64,000 nt of DNA, from positions 62,001 through 126,000 of the forward strand of contig NZ_RQYL01000005.1 of the NCBI RefSeq assembly GCF_003860125.1. Reading direction: 5' to 3'. The position numbers and the translations under genes were made by a program. Below the pieces are notes generated by a model. It did not search any database, was not told where the DNA came from, and saw only the letters and a list, made by a program, of their open reading frames with translations. This stretch comes from Fretibacterium sp. OH1220_COT-178 (GTDB taxonomy: Bacteria > Synergistota > Synergistia > Synergistales > Aminobacteriaceae). How positions within the stretch are numbered: position 1 is the stretch's first letter; each line of letters opens with the position of its first letter. Positions 7,919 through 61,775 of the stretch are shown here, one piece after another.

Positions 7919-8174
7919 AGAAATACCCATTTTCCGGGAAAGCGAAATGCTTTTCCTGCCGCTTAAAAAAGCGATGCTCTTGACCTTGAGGGGGGCCGCG
8001 TGGGAAGATAGCGAAGGCCCGCGACGCGGAGCTTGAGATGCGTCATGAGTCCGGCATCGAGTCCAGGGGAACCGAAGGGGATACCCGGAAGCCCTGATGT
8101 TGCCGATCCCATTGGCGGCGTCGCGGGAGGAGGCCTATGCCGCTTCGAATTTGTGGTGCCGGAGGCATTTCCCC

Positions 8175-8918
8175 ATGAGATTCGATCGTCCCACCCCATT
8201 GAGGAAGCAGGTCTACGATTATCTGCGCGAACTGCTGATCTCGGGCAGGCTGAAGGCGGGAGAGTTTGTCAATCAGGCCGAATTGATGGCCAAACTCGAC
8301 GTCAGCCGAACGCCTCTGCGCGACTCGCTGATGCAGCTGGAGGCGGAGGGTTTCGTCTCCATCATTCCCTGCAAGGGGGTGGTGGTCAATCCTCTGACCC
8401 GGGACGTGATCAGAAATATCTACCAGATATCGGGAGCCTTGGAGGCCGCGGCGTTTGAGATGGTCTTTCCGATGGTCGGGGAGCTGGAGCTGAAGAGGAT
8501 GGAGGAGATCATCGAGAGGACGGAGGCCCTGATTGCCGAGGGCGATTACAGCCGCTGCCACGAAAACAATCTGGCGTTTCACGAGGTGGCGCTCAATCTC
8601 TGCGACAACGCCGAATTGCTGCGGATTTTAAGGAGCAACCGGGAGCGCCTCTATCATTTTCCGATCTGGGCGACCCGCGAGCTCTCCTCCGAGTCGGCGG
8701 ACCTGTCCCTATGGGAGAGGGAATATTGGGTTCAGCACCGCAGGCTTCTTGCTCTTTTCGCCCGCGGCACGGCGCGCGAGGTCGCCGACTACGTGCGTTA
8801 CGTGCACTGGGCGTTCGAGGAGGTCGAGAGGCCGATCATCAGCTTCTATTGCCTGGACGAGGGCACGGGAGAGCAAAACGCGGAGCCCGCGGATAAGTTA
8901 TTGCCAAAGGACGGTTGA
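8175..8918 (+). CDS. GntR-family transcriptional regulator, FCD subfamily
   Basis: A 247-residue regulator. The N-terminal winged helix is typical of GntR (PLRKQVYDYLRELLISGRL, then SRTPLRDSLMQLEAEGFV). It is followed by an all-helical FCD effector domain with histidines in FHEVAL and QHRRLL that could bind a metal and an organic-acid ligand. The ATG at 8175 follows CCGGAGG at 9 bases; a longer upstream frame lacks a ribosome binding site. It is divergent from the lyase/molybdenum-hydroxylase operon and probably controls it through the palindrome at 7872-7888. Confidence 0.9.
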   Translation: MRFDRPTPLRKQVYDYLRELLISGRLKAGEFVNQAELMAKLDVSRTPLRDSLMQLEAEGFVSIIPCKGVVVNPLTRDVIRNIYQISGALEAAAFEMVFPMVGELELKRMEEIIERTEALIAEGDYSRCHENNLAFHEVALNLCDNAELLRILRSNRERLYHFPIWATRELSSESADLSLWEREYWVQHRRLLALFARGTAREVADYVRYVHWAFEEVERPIISFYCLDEGTGEQNAEPADKLLPKDG

Positions 8919-8998
8919 CCGGTTTTGTATCCGATGATGGTTTCACTATGACTGTGCTACGCTATACAAGTTGTGTAATCGCAAGTCTTACCTGTAAG

Positions 8999-9050
8999 TC
9001 ATTGCCATACTCCACATGACAAAGGGCTGTTTATGACTCATTGGCAATGA
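8999..9050. repeat. 9-bp inverted repeat after the GntR gene
   Basis: TCATTGCCA at 8999-9007 and TGGCAATGA at 9042-9050 are perfect complements. A run of T begins about 8 bases downstream (from 9058). It may help end the GntR transcript, although the T-run is further from the stem than in a classic terminator. Confidence 0.3.
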
Positions 9051-9095
9051 GCTTGGAGTTTTTTTGCGCTTCTCCGGCCGGGGTCGTTGCGGGCG

Positions 9096-9130
9096 CAAAA
9101 AAGAGGGGAGAAGCCTCGGGCTTCCCCCCT
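9096..9130 (-). terminator. intrinsic terminator of the repeat/nuclease gene
   Basis: On the minus strand a GC-rich stem built from GGGAAGCCC and its partner GGCTTCTCCCC closes over a CGA loop and is followed by TCTTTTTTG. It lies just past the stop codon at 9149, as expected for a rho-independent terminator of that gene. Confidence 0.75.
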
Positions 9131-9148
9131 CGCGGCATCGTTCCTCTC

Positions 9149-11458
9149 TCAGCCTCTCCGGCGCCGTATCGCTCCCTGCTGGAGCTCCCGGACCAGGTTG
9201 ATCCTGAAGACGTCGGCAAACTCGTCCAGGTTGCAGCAACTCAGCTCGTAGCGGGCCGAGAGGTTGTCGGCCGGGGCCAGGGTGTCCACGCTGACCAGCA
9301 TGGAGGTGTTGCGGTTCAGCCCCAGCACCTTCGAAACCCGGGAGTATTTGGGGAGGAAGTCCATGTACTCTCCGGTCTTGGCCTCGATCCAGAAGATCCT
9401 CTCGCCGATGCTCAAAAGGAGGTCGAGCTCGAAGTCCTCCTCGCCCGGCAGGATGATGCGCGGGTTCTTCATGAACGCGTAGGGGAGGTCGAGCGTTGCG
9501 GGGTGCGTCGTGAGGATGGAGACGACCTTGTCGCGGATGAAGTGCTCGAGCCACCCTCCGGTGAGGAAGTTGATCGCCGTCGGCGTACGGTTGACGCGGG
9601 CGACGATCTTGCAGTGAGGGGCCCGCCGGTAGGTGTACGAGGCCAGAAAATCCACCTCCTGAAGCATCCGGCAGAAGTTCAGGGTATGGGTCACGTCGCG
9701 GCTGTGCAGCCCCGCCATGGAATAGGAGAACTCCTCCCCCTCGTTGAGGGTGGCCTTCAGGGTGTCGTAAAAGGGAAGGACGTAGGAGAGGTATTTCCCC
9801 AGGAAGGCCGCGAGTTGCGAAACGCGCGGGTCCAGGTCGGACTCGTCGGGTATGGAGACGATCTCGACGCCGCGCCTCTGGAGATATCGGGCGAGCCCCT
9901 CCAGCTTTTTGACGGAGAACTGCCCCCCGGCCTCCTGTTCGGGGTCGGCGCCGCCCATGACGATGGTGCTGGAGAGCACGCTGGGAAAGACGGCGGAGCC
10001 CTCGTCGAGCGCCTCCTCCACGTGGCGCACCATGTTGGGGGAGAGCAGCTCGATGTGCCGTCCCATGCGTGAGCTGGAGAGGGTGCGCAGCAATCCCGCC
10101 GCCTCCAGGTTCTCGAGCTGGGCCAGCAGGGAAGGCTTGCCTATGGACAGAGCCTGAGCCAGCTGATTGATGTGGATCAGCCCCTCCTCCCTTCCCTTCA
10201 GGACGTCCATCAACACGAAGAGCATGCCCAGCGGAGCAAAGCCGTGTAGCGAGGACATCATCTGTACGGACCCATATTCGGTGGGCACATAGGGATTCTT
10301 TTTCCTCCTCCCCCGGCCCGCTCCCTCCGGCGTCGGCAAGGGCTTTGGGGGGACGGCTGAAACGGACGGAGCAGGGGAAGGCGGAGGTGTTCCGGTAGGG
10401 TTTTTATTCCCGGTATCGCTATCGGAACTCCTGTTCGAGGTGTCTTTATTGATTCCGGTATTGTTTTTATTGCCGATTTTTCGCCCCTTCGAGGGGCGCG
10501 CTTCCCGGAACGAGGAGGGGCGGGGTGGAAGCGCCTCTTTTTTCTCGGTATTTTTAATACCGGTATTGCTTTTGCCGTCCTCTGACAGAGGATCATTCCT
10601 TATACCGGTATTGTTTTTGTTGTTGATGTTTCGCCCTCTCGCGGTTCTTGCCTCCCGGGGAGAGGTGGGGTGGGGCAAAAAAGCTCCTTTTTCTTTGGTT
10701 TTTTTAATACCGGTATCGGTTTTATCGCTCTCGGTTTGGGTCTTGTTTTTTATATCGATATTGCTTTTATCTCTCTCTTTTTTGCTTTGTTGGCCGCCGC
10801 TCTTTGTTTTTTGAGGGCTATTTTTTTGCCCGGTATTGTTTTTATTCTCTTTTTGGATGCGGGGTTTGTCGTCGCGGGCCTCGCTCTGAGGATCTTCTTT
10901 CGACTTTTTCCGGTCGTTTACATTACCGGTATTGTTTTTTTCTGTTTTTCTGAGGGGTTGCGTCTCTTTTTTTTGTTTTTTATCGATACCGGTATCGTTT
11001 TTGTCAATCGATTTGATTGTGTTGTTTTTGTTACCGGTACTGTTTTTGTTTGCTTCTTGGGGGGTGGAGTGCAAAGGGTTGATGCTCTTTAGGGTATTCT
11101 TATTGGTATCGGTATTGTTTTTTGAGGGACGCCTTCCTGGGCGGGACGATTCGGCGCCCCCCTTTTTATCCGCGCCCATGGGGGATGCCTCGGCGGACGC
11201 AGAGGCGCCTCCGTCCGGGGTGCGTGCGCCTTTGGGCTCTGCGGGCGGCTGCTGCGAGGGGGCCGGAGGCTCCTGTGTCCTTTCCGCCGCCTTTTCCGCG
11301 GGCTTCCTTCTTCTCCTGGGGCGCGGCGAAGGGGCCTCCGTCGGCAGGGCAGCCGAGGCGTGGCCCTTCTCCGTTGTTCCCGCCGTCTTTTCCGCCAGGG
11401 GGGCTTTGGGGTTGCTCTCCGTCTTGGAGTCGGCTTGAGCTGAAGTTTTTTTCCTCAT
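9149..11458 (-). CDS. repeat-rich protein with winged helix and PD-(D/E)XK nuclease-like C-terminal domain
   Basis: A 769-residue protein, counted from the ATG at 11458. Residues 1-110 are basic and proline-rich. Residues about 113-355 hold at least eleven imperfect copies of an NKNNTGI-like motif, including two 40-residue near-duplicates. A helix-turn-helix/winged-helix segment lies at about 403-475 ([20 protein letters not shown]). The C-terminus resembles the nuclease part of DUF1887/Card1-type proteins: [11 protein letters not shown] near 634, then FELDLLL and [10 protein letters not shown], giving an Asp679, Glu692, Lys694 constellation. No CARF domain is evident. The start is uncertain: the frame is open to 11569, and ATG 11458 has only a weak, close AGGA. 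It may be a defence or DNA-processing effector; the function is unproven. Confidence 0.75.
10390..11125. repeat. eleven degenerate copies of an AT-rich palindrome-bearing unit inside the coding region
   Basis: On the plus strand the unit is close to ATACCGGTATTGTTTTT. Copies or variants begin near 10390, 10453, 10557, 10601, 10707, 10752, 10830, 10923, 10986, 11032 and 11104. The core TACCGGTA is self-complementary; one copy has TATCGATA instead. Spacing is irregular (about 45-105 bases) and the intervening sequence is not conserved throughout. In protein terms each unit encodes roughly KNNTGI. The block is much richer in A and T than the surrounding DNA. Confidence 0.85.
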
Positions 11459-27751: not shown

Positions 27752-27770
27752 TCGACTCACAGTCGAATAT

Positions 27771-27853
27771 CGTTTGCGGGGGAACTGAAGTTCGTTGAGA
27801 AGGTTAAAACCTGACCCCTTGAACCTGTCGGTTAATACCGGCGCAGGGAAGCA
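27771..27853 (+). ncRNA. TPP riboswitch (thi box)
   Basis: The leader contains the conserved thi-box elements in order: GCGGGGGAACTG, GTTGAGAAGG, TGACCCCTTGAACCTG, and GGTTAATACCGGCGCAGGGA. These match the TPP-binding aptamer, in which the CTGAGA-like and ACCTGATCTGG-like segments form the pyrimidine- and pyrophosphate-sensing helices. A terminator follows at 27886-27919, so binding of thiamin pyrophosphate should reduce thiD-cytX expression by early termination. Confidence 0.93.
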
Positions 27854-27885
27854 AAGCCGTAAGCGCACAGCGTTTCGTTGGATTC

Positions 27886-53587: not shown

Positions 53588-55522
53588 TCAATCGCGGACG
53601 ACGGAGGTCTGCGGTTGATTTTGAGGGGGAATGGCGCCCTCCGCTCCACCGGTCCCGACCCGGCATCGGTCCCTTTCCCGCAGCAGCAGCGCCGCGTTGA
53701 CCACGACGAAGACGGAGCCGAAGTTGTGCCACAGCGCGCCGGTGACGGGAGTCAGGATCCCCGCCGCGGACAGCGAGACGGCACTGGCGTTGATGACGAG
53801 GGAGGCGATGATGTTGGTCCTCACCTTATCCATCGCCCTTCTCGTCAGCCGGAACAGGTAGGGGAGGCGCTTGATGTCGTCGCCGACGAGGACGGCGTCC
53901 GCGGCCTCGACCGCGATGTCGCTGCCGATCCCGCCCATCGCGATGCCGGCGTAGGCGCCGCTCAGGGCCGGAGCGTCGTTCACCCCGTCCCCGATCATGC
54001 AGGTCGGTTCCCTCTCGTCGTCTCCCTTGACGATGGATGCCTTTTCCTCCGGCAGCAGGTTGGCGCGAACCTCCGATATCCCCGCGGCCTCTGCCGCCGC
54101 CGCGGCCGCACGCTCGTTGTCCCCCGTGAGGAGCATACAGGAGATGCCGAGCCCCTCCAGGGCCCGAACCGTGTCCTTCGCGTCCGGACGGATCTCGTCC
54201 GCCAGGGCGATCAGGCCGACGATCCGGGCGCCGCGGGAGAGGAGGACGACCGTCGCCCCCCGATCCAGGAACTCCTCTGCCGCCTCCGCGGCCCCGTCGG
54301 GTGAAATTCCCCGCGAGGCGAAGTAATCCGCCTTCCCGACCGCGACCTCCGTCCCGTCGATCGTGCCGCTCATGGCCCGGCCGGCGATCGCCCGGGAGTC
54401 GGCGACGGGCTCGGGATCCTCTCCCGTCCTCTCCAGGAAGGACGCGACGACGGCCTTGCCGAGCGGGTGTTCGGAGCGGCGCTCGACCCGCGCCGCGATG
54501 CGGAGGACGTCCCCGTCCGAGAGGGAGGCGTCGAGGCTCCTGAAGGCGACGACCTGCGGCCGCCCGTGGGTGAGGGTCCCCGTCTTGTCGAAGGCCGCGC
54601 GCCTCACCCTCGAAAGGCGCTCCAGCGCGTCGCCGGAACGGATCAGGATTCCATGGCGCGCCGCGTTTCCCATCCCCGCGACGACCGCCGTGGGCGTCGC
54701 CAGGATGAAGGCGCAGGGGCAGAAGACGACGAGCACCGTCACGGCCCGGACGAACTCGCCCGTGAGGAGCCAGGTGAGGAGGGCGCAGGCGAGCGCGGCG
54801 ACGACGAGCCACGTCGCCCAGGCGTCGGCCAGGGAGACGATGGGCGCCTTGTTCTCGTCCGCCTCCTCCGCGAGCCGGATCATCCGCTGGAGCGAGCTGT
54901 CGCCGCAGACCCGGTCCGCACGCATGGAGAACGTCCCGAACCGGTTTATCGTGCCGCTGGTGACCGAGTCGCCCTCCCCCTTGTCCACGGGGATGCTCTC
55001 GCCGGTCATCACGGACTGGTCGATGGAGGTCCGTCCCTCCAGGATGGTCCCGTCGACCGGGATCGTCTCGCCGGCGAGCACGGTCAGGACGTCGCCCTCC
55101 CGCACTTCCTCGGCGGGCAGGACGACGTCGGCCCCCTCCCGTCTGACGCGCGCCGTCCGGGGCGTGAGCCCGATCAGCTTCTCGATGCCGCGGCGCGCCC
55201 TTTCGGAGGTGTAGTCCTCCAGCAAAGACCCGATCTGCATGATCAGCGCAACCTCGCCGGCCGCGAAATATTCCCCTATCCCTACGGAGGCGGCGAGCGC
55301 CATGGCGACCAGGAGGTCGGCCTTGATGTCGCGCTCGAAAATCACTCCCCTTGCGGCACCGACGACGATCGGGACGCCGCAGAGGACGATCGCCACCCAC
55401 GCGATGTCCGCCGGGAGGCTGCCCTCGAACGTGCCCGCCAGGCTCAGCGCCAGGGAAACCGCCGAGACCAGAACGCAGACGACCGTGGTGCGCGTCTCGT
55501 TTTCCATCCATTTCCCGAACAT
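53588..55522 (-). CDS. P1B-type heavy-metal-transporting ATPase
   Basis: A 644-residue P-type ATPase. Motifs in order are the actuator loop MTGESIPVDKGEGD, the metal-site CPC in FCPCAFILATPTA, the phosphorylated aspartate in FDKTGTLTHG, the HP dipeptide in SEHPLGKAVV, GDGVNDAPALSGA, and the last helices with ALWHNFGSVFVVVNAALLL. It has no N-terminal HMA metal-binding domain. The final-helix His-Asn-x-Gly-Ser pattern differs from the classic Cu(I) and Zn/Cd types, so the metal is not assigned. ATG 55522 follows GGGAGG. Its promoter region repeats the TetR operator region. Confidence 0.9.
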   Translation of the reverse strand: MFGKWMENETRTTVVCVLVSAVSLALSLAGTFEGSLPADIAWVAIVLCGVPIVVGAARGVIFERDIKADLLVAMALAASVGIGEYFAAGEVALIMQIGSLLEDYTSERARRGIEKLIGLTPRTARVRREGADVVLPAEEVREGDVLTVLAGETIPVDGTILEGRTSIDQSVMTGESIPVDKGEGDSVTSGTINRFGTFSMRADRVCGDSSLQRMIRLAEEADENKAPIVSLADAWATWLVVAALACALLTWLLTGEFVRAVTVLVVFCPCAFILATPTAVVAGMGNAARHGILIRSGDALERLSRVRRAAFDKTGTLTHGRPQVVAFRSLDASLSDGDVLRIAARVERRSEHPLGKAVVASFLERTGEDPEPVADSRAIAGRAMSGTIDGTEVAVGKADYFASRGISPDGAAEAAEEFLDRGATVVLLSRGARIVGLIALADEIRPDAKDTVRALEGLGISCMLLTGDNERAAAAAAEAAGISEVRANLLPEEKASIVKGDDEREPTCMIGDGVNDAPALSGAYAGIAMGGIGSDIAVEAADAVLVGDDIKRLPYLFRLTRRAMDKVRTNIIASLVINASAVSLSAAGILTPVTGALWHNFGSVFVVVNAALLLRERDRCRVGTGGAEGAIPPQNQPQTSVVRD

Positions 55523-55595
55523 GATGCCCTCCCGCGTCCTCGCCCCTGTACGAAGCCTGAGGGGCGATAAAATAGAGAACGAAATCATCGTTATT

Positions 55596-57300: not shown

Positions 57301-58446
57301 ATGCTTTACAGAAAGATATCGGGAGTGGAGGGGGCGCTCTCGGTCCTGGGCTTCGGCTGCATGCGTTTGCCCGTCACCGCGGGCGGGGCCATCGACGAGC
57401 CCGCGGCCGAGCGCCTGATGCGCGCCGCATTCGACGGCGGCATCAATTATTTCGATGCGGCCTGGCCCTATCACGAGGGCAAGTGCGAGGAGTTCGTCGG
57501 ACGGGCCCTGGAGGGCTACCGGGACAAGGTGACGCTGGTGACCAAGCTGCCCGTGTGGCTGGTGCGCGAGCCTAGCGATATGGAGGACTTTCTGGAGAGG
57601 CAGCTGAACTTTCTGCGCACGGACCACCTGGATATCTACCTGCTCCACTCCCTGAATGGGGACCGATGGCGGAGGATGAGGGAGATGGGGGCGCTCGAGT
57701 TCATGGAGCGGGCCCGGGCCGCGGGCAGGATTCGGCACATCGCCTTCTCGTTTCACGACGGGATCGACAGCTTCAAGGAGATCGTGGACGCCTACCCGTG
57801 GACGATGTGCCAGATCCAGTACAACCTCCTGGACCGAAACTTCCAGGCGGGAAGGGAGGGGCTGGACTACGCCGCCGCCAAGGGGATCGGCGTCGTGGTG
57901 ATGGAGCCCCTGAAGGGCGGCAACATCAGTCTTCCGGTCCCTGAAGAGCTCAAGGAGGAGGCACGGCTCGCGGGGTACGCCTCGCCCAACCTGGCGGACC
58001 TGGGCCTGCGCTGGGTCTGGGACCATCCCGGCGTCTCGGTGGTGCTGAGCGGCATGACCACGCCGGAGCAGCTGGCCCAGAACCTGGCCAGCGCCGACAG
58101 GGGCTTGGCGAACGGCCTGTCCGGGCCCGAGCGTCGCTTTGCGGACCGGGTGTGGAAATTCTTCACCGACCGCGTGAGGGTGCCCTGCACGGCCTGCGGC
58201 TACTGCAAGCCCTGTCCGCAGGGGGTGGACATCCCTCAGTGCTTCACGAACCTGAACACCGCGTCGGTCTCCGGAAACTGGGAGGCCCAGGGCCGAAACT
58301 ACCGGTACATCCTGGCGCCGGACCGGGACGGAAAGCGGGCGTCCGCCTGCGTGAACTGCGGGGCCTGCGTCCCCAAGTGCCCTCAGGGCATTCCCATACC
58401 GGACAGGCTCCGTGAGGTGGCCGCGGCCTTCGAGTCGGAGGCATAG
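57301..58446 (+). CDS. aldo/keto reductase with C-terminal 4Fe-4S domain
   Basis: A 381-residue fusion. Residues 1-270 form an aldo-keto reductase barrel: LGFGCMRLPVT, INYFDAAWPYHEG (with the catalytic Asp/Tyr) and a Lys in VTKLPVWL. Residues about 295-370 are a ferredoxin-like domain with CTACGYCKPCPQGV and CVNCGACVPKCPQGI, binding two 4Fe-4S clusters. This type is common in anaerobes and probably links ferredoxin to the reductase. Substrate unknown. GGGGGAG precedes the ATG. Confidence 0.92.
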   Translation: MLYRKISGVEGALSVLGFGCMRLPVTAGGAIDEPAAERLMRAAFDGGINYFDAAWPYHEGKCEEFVGRALEGYRDKVTLVTKLPVWLVREPSDMEDFLERQLNFLRTDHLDIYLLHSLNGDRWRRMREMGALEFMERARAAGRIRHIAFSFHDGIDSFKEIVDAYPWTMCQIQYNLLDRNFQAGREGLDYAAAKGIGVVVMEPLKGGNISLPVPEELKEEARLAGYASPNLADLGLRWVWDHPGVSVVLSGMTTPEQLAQNLASADRGLANGLSGPERRFADRVWKFFTDRVRVPCTACGYCKPCPQGVDIPQCFTNLNTASVSGNWEAQGRNYRYILAPDRDGKRASACVNCGACVPKCPQGIPIPDRLREVAAAFESEA

Positions 58447-61381: not shown

Positions 61382-61424
61382 GCCGCAGCTTCGAGCCCCA
61401 TCATCATCAAAGGAGGAAGTTTGC

Positions 61425-61775
61425 ATGCTGTTTCTCTGTCATCCCAAGTGAGGAACCTGTCGGAAGGCCAAGGCTTGGCTGGATGAAAAGGGTTTGGAGC
61501 ACACGGTGCGGGATATCGTCCAGGACCCTCCGACGGCTGTGGAGCTGGCGGAGTGGCTAAGGCGGAGCGGGCTGCCCCTGGCGAGGTTCTTCAACACCAG
61601 CGGCATGGCCTATCGCGCGCTGGGGCTCAAGGACAGGCTGCCCGCGATGGGCGAGGCCGAGGCGCTCTCGGTCCTGGCGTCCGACGGGATGCTCGTGAAG
61701 CGTCCGCTGCTCGTCGCCGACAGGGCCGTCCTGATCGGGTTCCGCGAGGCGGCGTGGGCGGAGGCGCTGCTTTAG
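61425..61775 (+). CDS. ArsC/Spx-family thiol-redox protein with in-frame UGA (probable selenoprotein)
   Basis: Reading UGA (61449-61451) as selenocysteine gives a complete 116-residue ArsC/Spx-family protein. It begins MLFLCHPK, then Sec at residue 9, then GTCRKAKAWLDEKGLEHTV. Relatives have the catalytic cysteine of a C-x-x-C motif exactly where the UGA lies, giving U-x-x-C here. The rest (RFFNTSGMAYRALGLKD, LLVADRAVLIGF) is typical of the fold. AGGAGG at 8 bases precedes the ATG and lies well upstream of the UGA. A small hairpin follows the UGA at a suitable distance. The alternative, a nonsense-mutated gene, is less likely given the exact position. Confidence 0.8.
61449..61479 (+). promoter_or_regulatory. 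UGA codon with candidate bacterial SECIS hairpin
   Basis: About 16 bases after the UGA, GCCAA (61467-61471) and TTGGC (61475-61479) form a stem over a GGC loop. Bacterial SECIS elements are short hairpins in the coding region just 3' of the UGA, with a guanine in the apical loop. This one fits in distance and loop but is short. Sec-insertion genes are not in this window. Confidence 0.5.

Follow-up and report, generated by a model that had tools for sequence, protein, structure and literature searches.

Selenoproteins of the ArsC-like or 'Arsenate reductase 2' group, in which selenocysteine (Sec) opens a UxxC motif, have been on record since 2006 (PMC1794560; PMC2398784, cd03032; PMC9312934, COG1393). 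According to the available portions of these reports, which cover Deltaproteobacteria and marine metagenomes, such proteins combine the ArsC/Spx fold with Sec in the first position of UxxC, Cys-containing homologues and a SECIS element 3' of the UGA, and the protein described here resembles them in each of these features. Its gene belongs instead to the Synergistota, a phylum already known as rich in selenoproteins (PMC5029168), and for which no ArsC-like member was found in the available portions of PMC1794560, PMC2398784 and PMC9312934.

The gene lies in the window, by which we mean the whole stretch of 64,000 nucleotides analysed, from a genome assembly of Fretibacterium sp. OH1220_COT-178 which measures 2.86 Mb and is 99.96% complete. 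We assign a probability of about 95% to its being a complete selenoprotein gene of the ArsC/Spx thioredoxin-fold family, because the Sec machinery of the genome is complete, the TGA recurs at the same codon in related genes (19 from Synergistota and 1 from Clostridia) and a SECIS-type hairpin is shared among them. The same evidence supports the sequence-only reading, which had proposed a selenoprotein from the UGA at the catalytic Cys.

The interrupted frame and its homologues

The features of the locus are the following:
61410..61417, + strand: Shine-Dalgarno sequence AAGGAGGA, read directly, 7 nt 5' of the ATG
61425..61775, + strand: predicted Sec-containing gene of the ArsC/Spx fold, 116 codons plus a TAG stop, with a single in-frame TGA
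61449..61451, + strand: UGA codon 9, at the catalytic Cys position directly before helix 1, aligned with Cys in 101 and with TGA in 19 other homologues
61458..61460, + strand: codon of Cys12, putative resolving Cys of the U-G-T-C motif, invariant in both alignments
61466..61480, + strand: bacterial SECIS-type hairpin GGCCAA-GGC-UUGGCU, with 6 bp, a GGC triloop and G in the loop

Direct reading confirmed the layout first proposed, in which a ribosome binding site and an ATG at 61425 open a frame broken by the TGA at 61449 alone and running through to the TAG stop at 61773-61775. A site of the AGGAG or GGGGAG type occurs at roughly the same spot in several Synergistota homologues. The joined product of 116 aa (MLFLCHPKUGTCRKAKAWLDEKG...) carries the motif U9-G-T-C12, i.e. 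U-x-x-C, and proved to be an ArsC/Spx protein as claimed: with U read as Cys, the Pfam ArsC score rises from 43.9 bits for the truncated ORF to 60.2 bits, and NCBIfam TIGR01617 is matched with 92.7 bits. As had been anticipated for a standard gene caller, an ordinary ORF call finds no more than a stub of 8 codons and, from TTG 61494, an ORF of 93 aa. Gene callers would cut the window gene short or overlook it, so that mis-annotation is probable for it and for its counterparts.

The search for orthologues over 188 Synergistota genomes returned about 40, among which, after removal of duplicates, the catalytic codon is TGA in 19 genes (that of the window included) and Cys in 22. A further 80 homologues were taken from the genome collection, mostly labelled Bacillota or Actinomycetota; TGA is found in one of them, from an uncultured Clostridia bacterium (L071), and Cys in the rest. 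Residue 9 is thus encoded by TGA in 20 and is Cys in 101 of the 121 homologues, and is nothing else, in agreement with the claim that the TGA takes the place of the catalytic Cys. The 20 genes bearing TGA (19 Synergistota and 1 Clostridia) contain no other in-frame stop. The first base 3' of the UGA is a purine and never U in all 20 Sec genes, while U directly follows the Cys codon in 36 of the 101 Cys genes.

These counts bear on the possibility that the TGA is a nonsense mutation or a miscalled TGC or TGG, the frame downstream of it being in decay. The nearest homologue, G006 (72% identity), does have TGC at codon 9, and no second genome of the window's genus stands among the relatives for checking the base. 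In 18 further Synergistota genes, each set drawn from separate assemblies, and in the Clostridia gene the codon is nonetheless the same TGA; moreover, the genome decodes Sec and bears TGA in selD and grdA as well, and the ribosome binding site, the start, the SECIS-type hairpin and the sequence to either side of the TGA are intact. A sequencing error or pseudogene, which according to the sequence-only reading the closest relatives would have revealed, was rejected on account of the same TGA in 19 other genes, and we hold it to be extremely improbable; neither this nor the other refuting condition named in that reading, a genome lacking the Sec machinery, was encountered.

An equally slight chance is left to the UGA being read as another amino acid (Trp, or by near-cognate read-through) or to translation in two pieces, the stub and a product of an internal start. 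The TTG at 61494 does open a 93-aa ORF which still matches Pfam ArsC, but this truncated ORF is devoid of strand 1 and of the catalytic motif. As for Trp, the aligned residue is Cys in 101 of 101 non-UGA homologues and never Trp, and the anticodon TCA belongs to a dedicated tRNA of the Sec type in this genome, which argues against any other amino acid at this codon.

Two side observations concern these homologues. Gly follows Sec directly (UGTC; codon 61452-61454 in the window) in 10 of the 20 Sec forms, and stands at that position in 1 of the 101 Cys forms, which otherwise have Ser or Thr; the window gene and the other UGTC genera are separated from one another on the tree. The Clostridia gene (L071:5001-5345, from the metagenome-assembled contig CALYAP010000013.1) is a Sec form with U-S-T-C; its best identity, 74%, is to a Synergistota Cys form, and it may therefore represent a transferred gene or a misbinned contig.

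Sec decoding and the SECIS-type hairpin

In the window's genome selA and selB are adjacent (L040:6634-8040 and 8037-9959), selA having been identified by reading the ORF adjoining selB, without a model search. A tRNA-Sec with anticodon TCA (UCA in RNA) is present, selD (L042) scores 326.9 bits and has an in-frame TGA at its expected Sec site, and so does grdA (L176). This gene content, selA, selB and tRNA-Sec together with TGA-bearing selD and grdA, indicates that the organism reads UGA as Sec. The machinery is complete, all of the components named beforehand in the sequence-only reading (selA, selB, selC and selD) being accounted for. The genome also contains 13 Synergist-CTERM domains over the cut-off, compared with none in 14 control genomes, which marks it as Synergistota; it belongs to the family of Aminobacterium, the Aminobacteriaceae.

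The short hairpin with G in its loop was found as described, at 61466-61480 and with the triloop GGC. The published constraints on bacterial SECIS elements (PMC13188914) comprise a loop of 3-9 nt, a stem of 4-16 bp, G in loop positions 1-2, a spacing of 16-37 nt and an MFE of -7.5 or lower. The window hairpin falls within these ranges, with a loop of 3 nt, a stem of 6 bp, GG, a loop which begins after 20 intervening nt from the UGA, and -8.6 kcal/mol for the 40 nt from the UGA. Checking the bases after the UGA for a SECIS element, as had been suggested, thus succeeded as regards the published constraints, but not as regards the stability of the single hairpin, which is not significant against dinucleotide shuffles (z from -0.1 to -1.7); 25% of synonymous-codon shuffles of the gene fold at least as stably, and an Rfam search of the window found no SECIS at the gathering threshold. 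Such single-sequence statistics were not taken as proof, and the hairpin is, on the sequences compared, convincing through comparison and not by the window gene alone.

A GCC...GGC hairpin is located 16-31 nt 3' of the UGA in 20 of 20 UGA genes, and a stem of at least 4 bp is kept in every one. The codon of Ala15 is GCC in 20/20 UGA genes versus 31/101 Cys genes, GCC making up 30% of the other Ala codons of those UGA genes. A stem with [G/U]G in the loop characterises 19/20 Sec genes versus 7/101 Cys genes or, within Synergistota only, 19/19 versus 2/22. The innermost pair is altered on both sides with pairing kept in 6 of 17 sequences, and the proportion of paired cells falls from 86% to 55% or less once the partner strand is slid. 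Fisher and shuffle values are inflated by relatedness. A sign test restricted to phylogenetically independent pairs showed hairpin and Sec together in 4-5 of 6 cases, with hardly any case of the opposite; its median p was 0.06, six pairs being too small a sample for formal significance. Part of the stem follows from the conserved A-x-x-W-L motif of the protein, and its presence is to that extent a side effect of the coding sequence. Furthermore, the TGA of selD in the same genome is followed by a hairpin whose triloop is likewise GGC.

The reading frame, its homologues, the Sec machinery, the conserved UGA of codon 9, the shared hairpin and the fold were established here by computation; actual Sec insertion, the catalytic cycle and the substrate are inferred. 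Ribosomes would begin at the ATG at 61425; the hairpin at 61466-61480 would recruit SelB with Sec-tRNA(UCA) at the UGA at 61449, so that Sec is inserted at the catalytic position, and translation would then proceed to the TAG at 61773. In the protein, Sec9 would act as the nucleophile on a disulfide or another oxidised substrate, and Cys12 would resolve the selenenylsulfide (Se-S bond) formed by Sec9. These roles of nucleophile and resolving thiol are drawn from thioredoxin-fold chemistry.

Fold, family models and gene neighbourhood

The AlphaFold model (pLDDT 96.5) places residue 9 directly before a helix spanning residues 10-21, and the conserved K92-R93-P94 loop sits in the active-site region. 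The closest fold is PDB 3GKX (rmsd 0.8 A, 52% identity), followed by 3FZ4 and 2M46; Spx structures (identity about 21%) and E. coli ArsC (about 20%) come after these. Among the family models, Pfam PF03960 ArsC passes its cut-off (60.2 versus 24 bits), as does TIGR01617 (Spx/MgsR; 92.7 versus 75.05), which is matched by 20 of 20 aligned homologues. Scores below cut-off were obtained with the arsC equivalog TIGR00014 (51.1 versus 106.05), with two dedicated Spx models (43.9 versus 123 and 37.3 versus 159) and with NF041106, ArsC_rel_Se_1 (17.1 versus 85). The window's genome has no further ArsC match.

A Sec-dependent arsenate reductase, a true ArsC detoxifying arsenate, would account for the ArsC fold, for the conserved equivalent of Arg94 (R93, present in all 119 alignment rows that have a letter in that column) and for the correspondence of C-G-T-S in E. 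coli ArsC with U-G-T-C here. The equivalent of E. coli Arg60 is however Asn in 121 of 121 members, no residue aligned with Arg107 is visible in an alignment which is gappy there, and the arsC equivalog cut-off is missed. Moreover, the gene is flanked upstream by an RNA uracil methyltransferase and downstream by a DUF2254 membrane protein, with no ars operon among its immediate neighbours, and an Mrp/NBP35-type gene lies upstream in several relatives. We therefore regard this identity as quite unlikely. The family name is no ground for calling the protein 'arsenate reductase', given the Asn at the Arg60 position, the lack of a visible Arg107 equivalent and the arsC score.

A Sec-containing transcription regulator of the Spx type, binding the C-terminal domain of the RNA polymerase alpha subunit, is suggested by the TIGR01617 match and by the Spx structures among the fold neighbours. 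The dedicated Spx models fall far below their cut-offs, and the closest structures are the uncharacterised ArsC-like 3GKX, 3FZ4 and 2M46, so that such a function seems rather unlikely. Judged by its sequence, the protein is probably a Sec-based reductase of the thiol/disulfide type or of small oxyanions, and not a canonical arsenate reductase. Between the two functions originally suggested, thiol oxidoreductase is hence the safer, whereas the arsenate-reductase-like half was not upheld.

The neighbourhoods compared revealed no conserved operon partner common to all members, and therefore do not name a substrate. Genes of one conserved family lie immediately upstream in eight further Synergistota genomes, some of which carry the Sec and others the Cys form (L147, L159, L165, L006, L157, L158, L160 and L163). 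The scanned representative of this family is an Fe-S cluster carrier of the Mrp/NBP35 type (PF10609), which may hint that the ArsC-like gene acts in the metabolism of Fe-S clusters or in redox metabolism. In one genus the ArsC-like gene is near an AsnC-type regulator. Elsewhere in the window are found an aldo/keto reductase with a C-terminal 4Fe-4S ferredoxin domain (57301-58446, +), an apparent cation-transporting P-type ATPase, recognised by reading its sequence (53588-55588, -), and a TPP riboswitch scoring 63.2 bits (27768-27867, +), the sole hit of the Rfam search over the gathering score.

Sec/Cys switching and comparison with known systems

A maximum-likelihood tree of 121 proteins, built on 114 alignment columns with residue 9 masked and with deep forks that did not resolve, requires about 10 Sec/Cys changes as a whole and 9 (bootstrap range 9-10) in the Synergistota Sec group alone; the well-supported (starred) branches by themselves force at least 6, and horizontal transfer, if it took place, would bring down the count of real conversions. 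On the tree the window gene groups most closely with the Cys form G006 (support 99/95). The selB gene is above cut-off in 9 of 9 tested relatives (2 with the Sec form, 6 with the full Cys form and 1 with a partial gene); as it is kept in the tested Cys-form genomes, their gene content indicates that loss of the Sec trait does not explain the Cys forms of those six.

What is new here is the recurrent switching between Sec and Cys, for which we advance a hypothesis. The ArsC-like family may toggle between the two residues unusually often in organisms which keep the Sec machinery because its A15-x-x-W18-L19 motif, with the coding pattern GCN-NNN-NNN-TGG-CTN, already contains a latent hairpin where a SECIS would lie, a tentative explanation to which we give slightly less than even odds. 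If true, a change of TGC to TGA together with a synonymous GCC and a loop G would suffice for the gain of Sec. The Gly beside Sec (UGTC) appears, from the sequences, to have originated on more than one occasion together with Sec.

The only Cys homologue with C-G-T-C, L142 (G161, C171:7106-7447), retains the GCC...GGC hairpin with GGG in the loop. It looks like a reversion from a U-G-T-C form, yet it groups with other Cys forms, and convergence is equally possible. Reversion from Sec to Cys in G161 and in G006, where the hairpin is kept with a GGA loop, is suggestive and is not claimed, because this feature of the hairpin is also present in 5 of 79 Cys genes from outside the Synergistota.

In the Synergistota set, a single small protein is available in matching Cys and Sec versions from related genomes, and every genome tested has selB. 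The set constitutes a good natural experiment on the conditions and reasons for the exchange of Cys for Sec in bacteria, and also bears on the amount of sequence change required for a new SECIS element.

With respect to family models, NF041106, 'ArsC family (seleno)protein', likewise describes a UxxC protein, and the score of 17 bits against 85 places the window protein in a different subgroup. The arsC_related model TIGR01617, whose cut-off is exceeded, is named for an RNA polymerase-binding regulator and makes no mention of selenium; neither TIGR01617 nor Spx is named in the available part of the 2026 review (PMC13188914). The NCBI model matching the window protein is thus silent on selenium, and the NCBI model of ArsC selenoproteins does not reach it.

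Among known structures, the same fold and subgroup are shared by 3GKX from Bacteroides fragilis, 3FZ4 from Streptococcus mutans and 2M46, SACOL0876 of Staphylococcus aureus, at 52%, 50% and 41% identity respectively and with TM-scores of 0.87-0.94 to the window model; these are Cys forms, in entries labelled putative, whereas the window protein is a Sec form. With the glutaredoxin-dependent ArsC of E. coli it has in common the fold, the catalytic Cys/Sec position and Arg94; unlike that enzyme, it lacks Arg60 and has no visible equivalent of Arg107, and its second Cys (C12) takes the place of a Ser in ArsC. The subgroup of the window protein (FFNTSG / LVKRPLL) is likened to the listed ArsC-like selenoproteins through the descriptions given in the available portions of those reports, and on its sequence the protein joins the already known ArsC-like UxxC selenoproteins.
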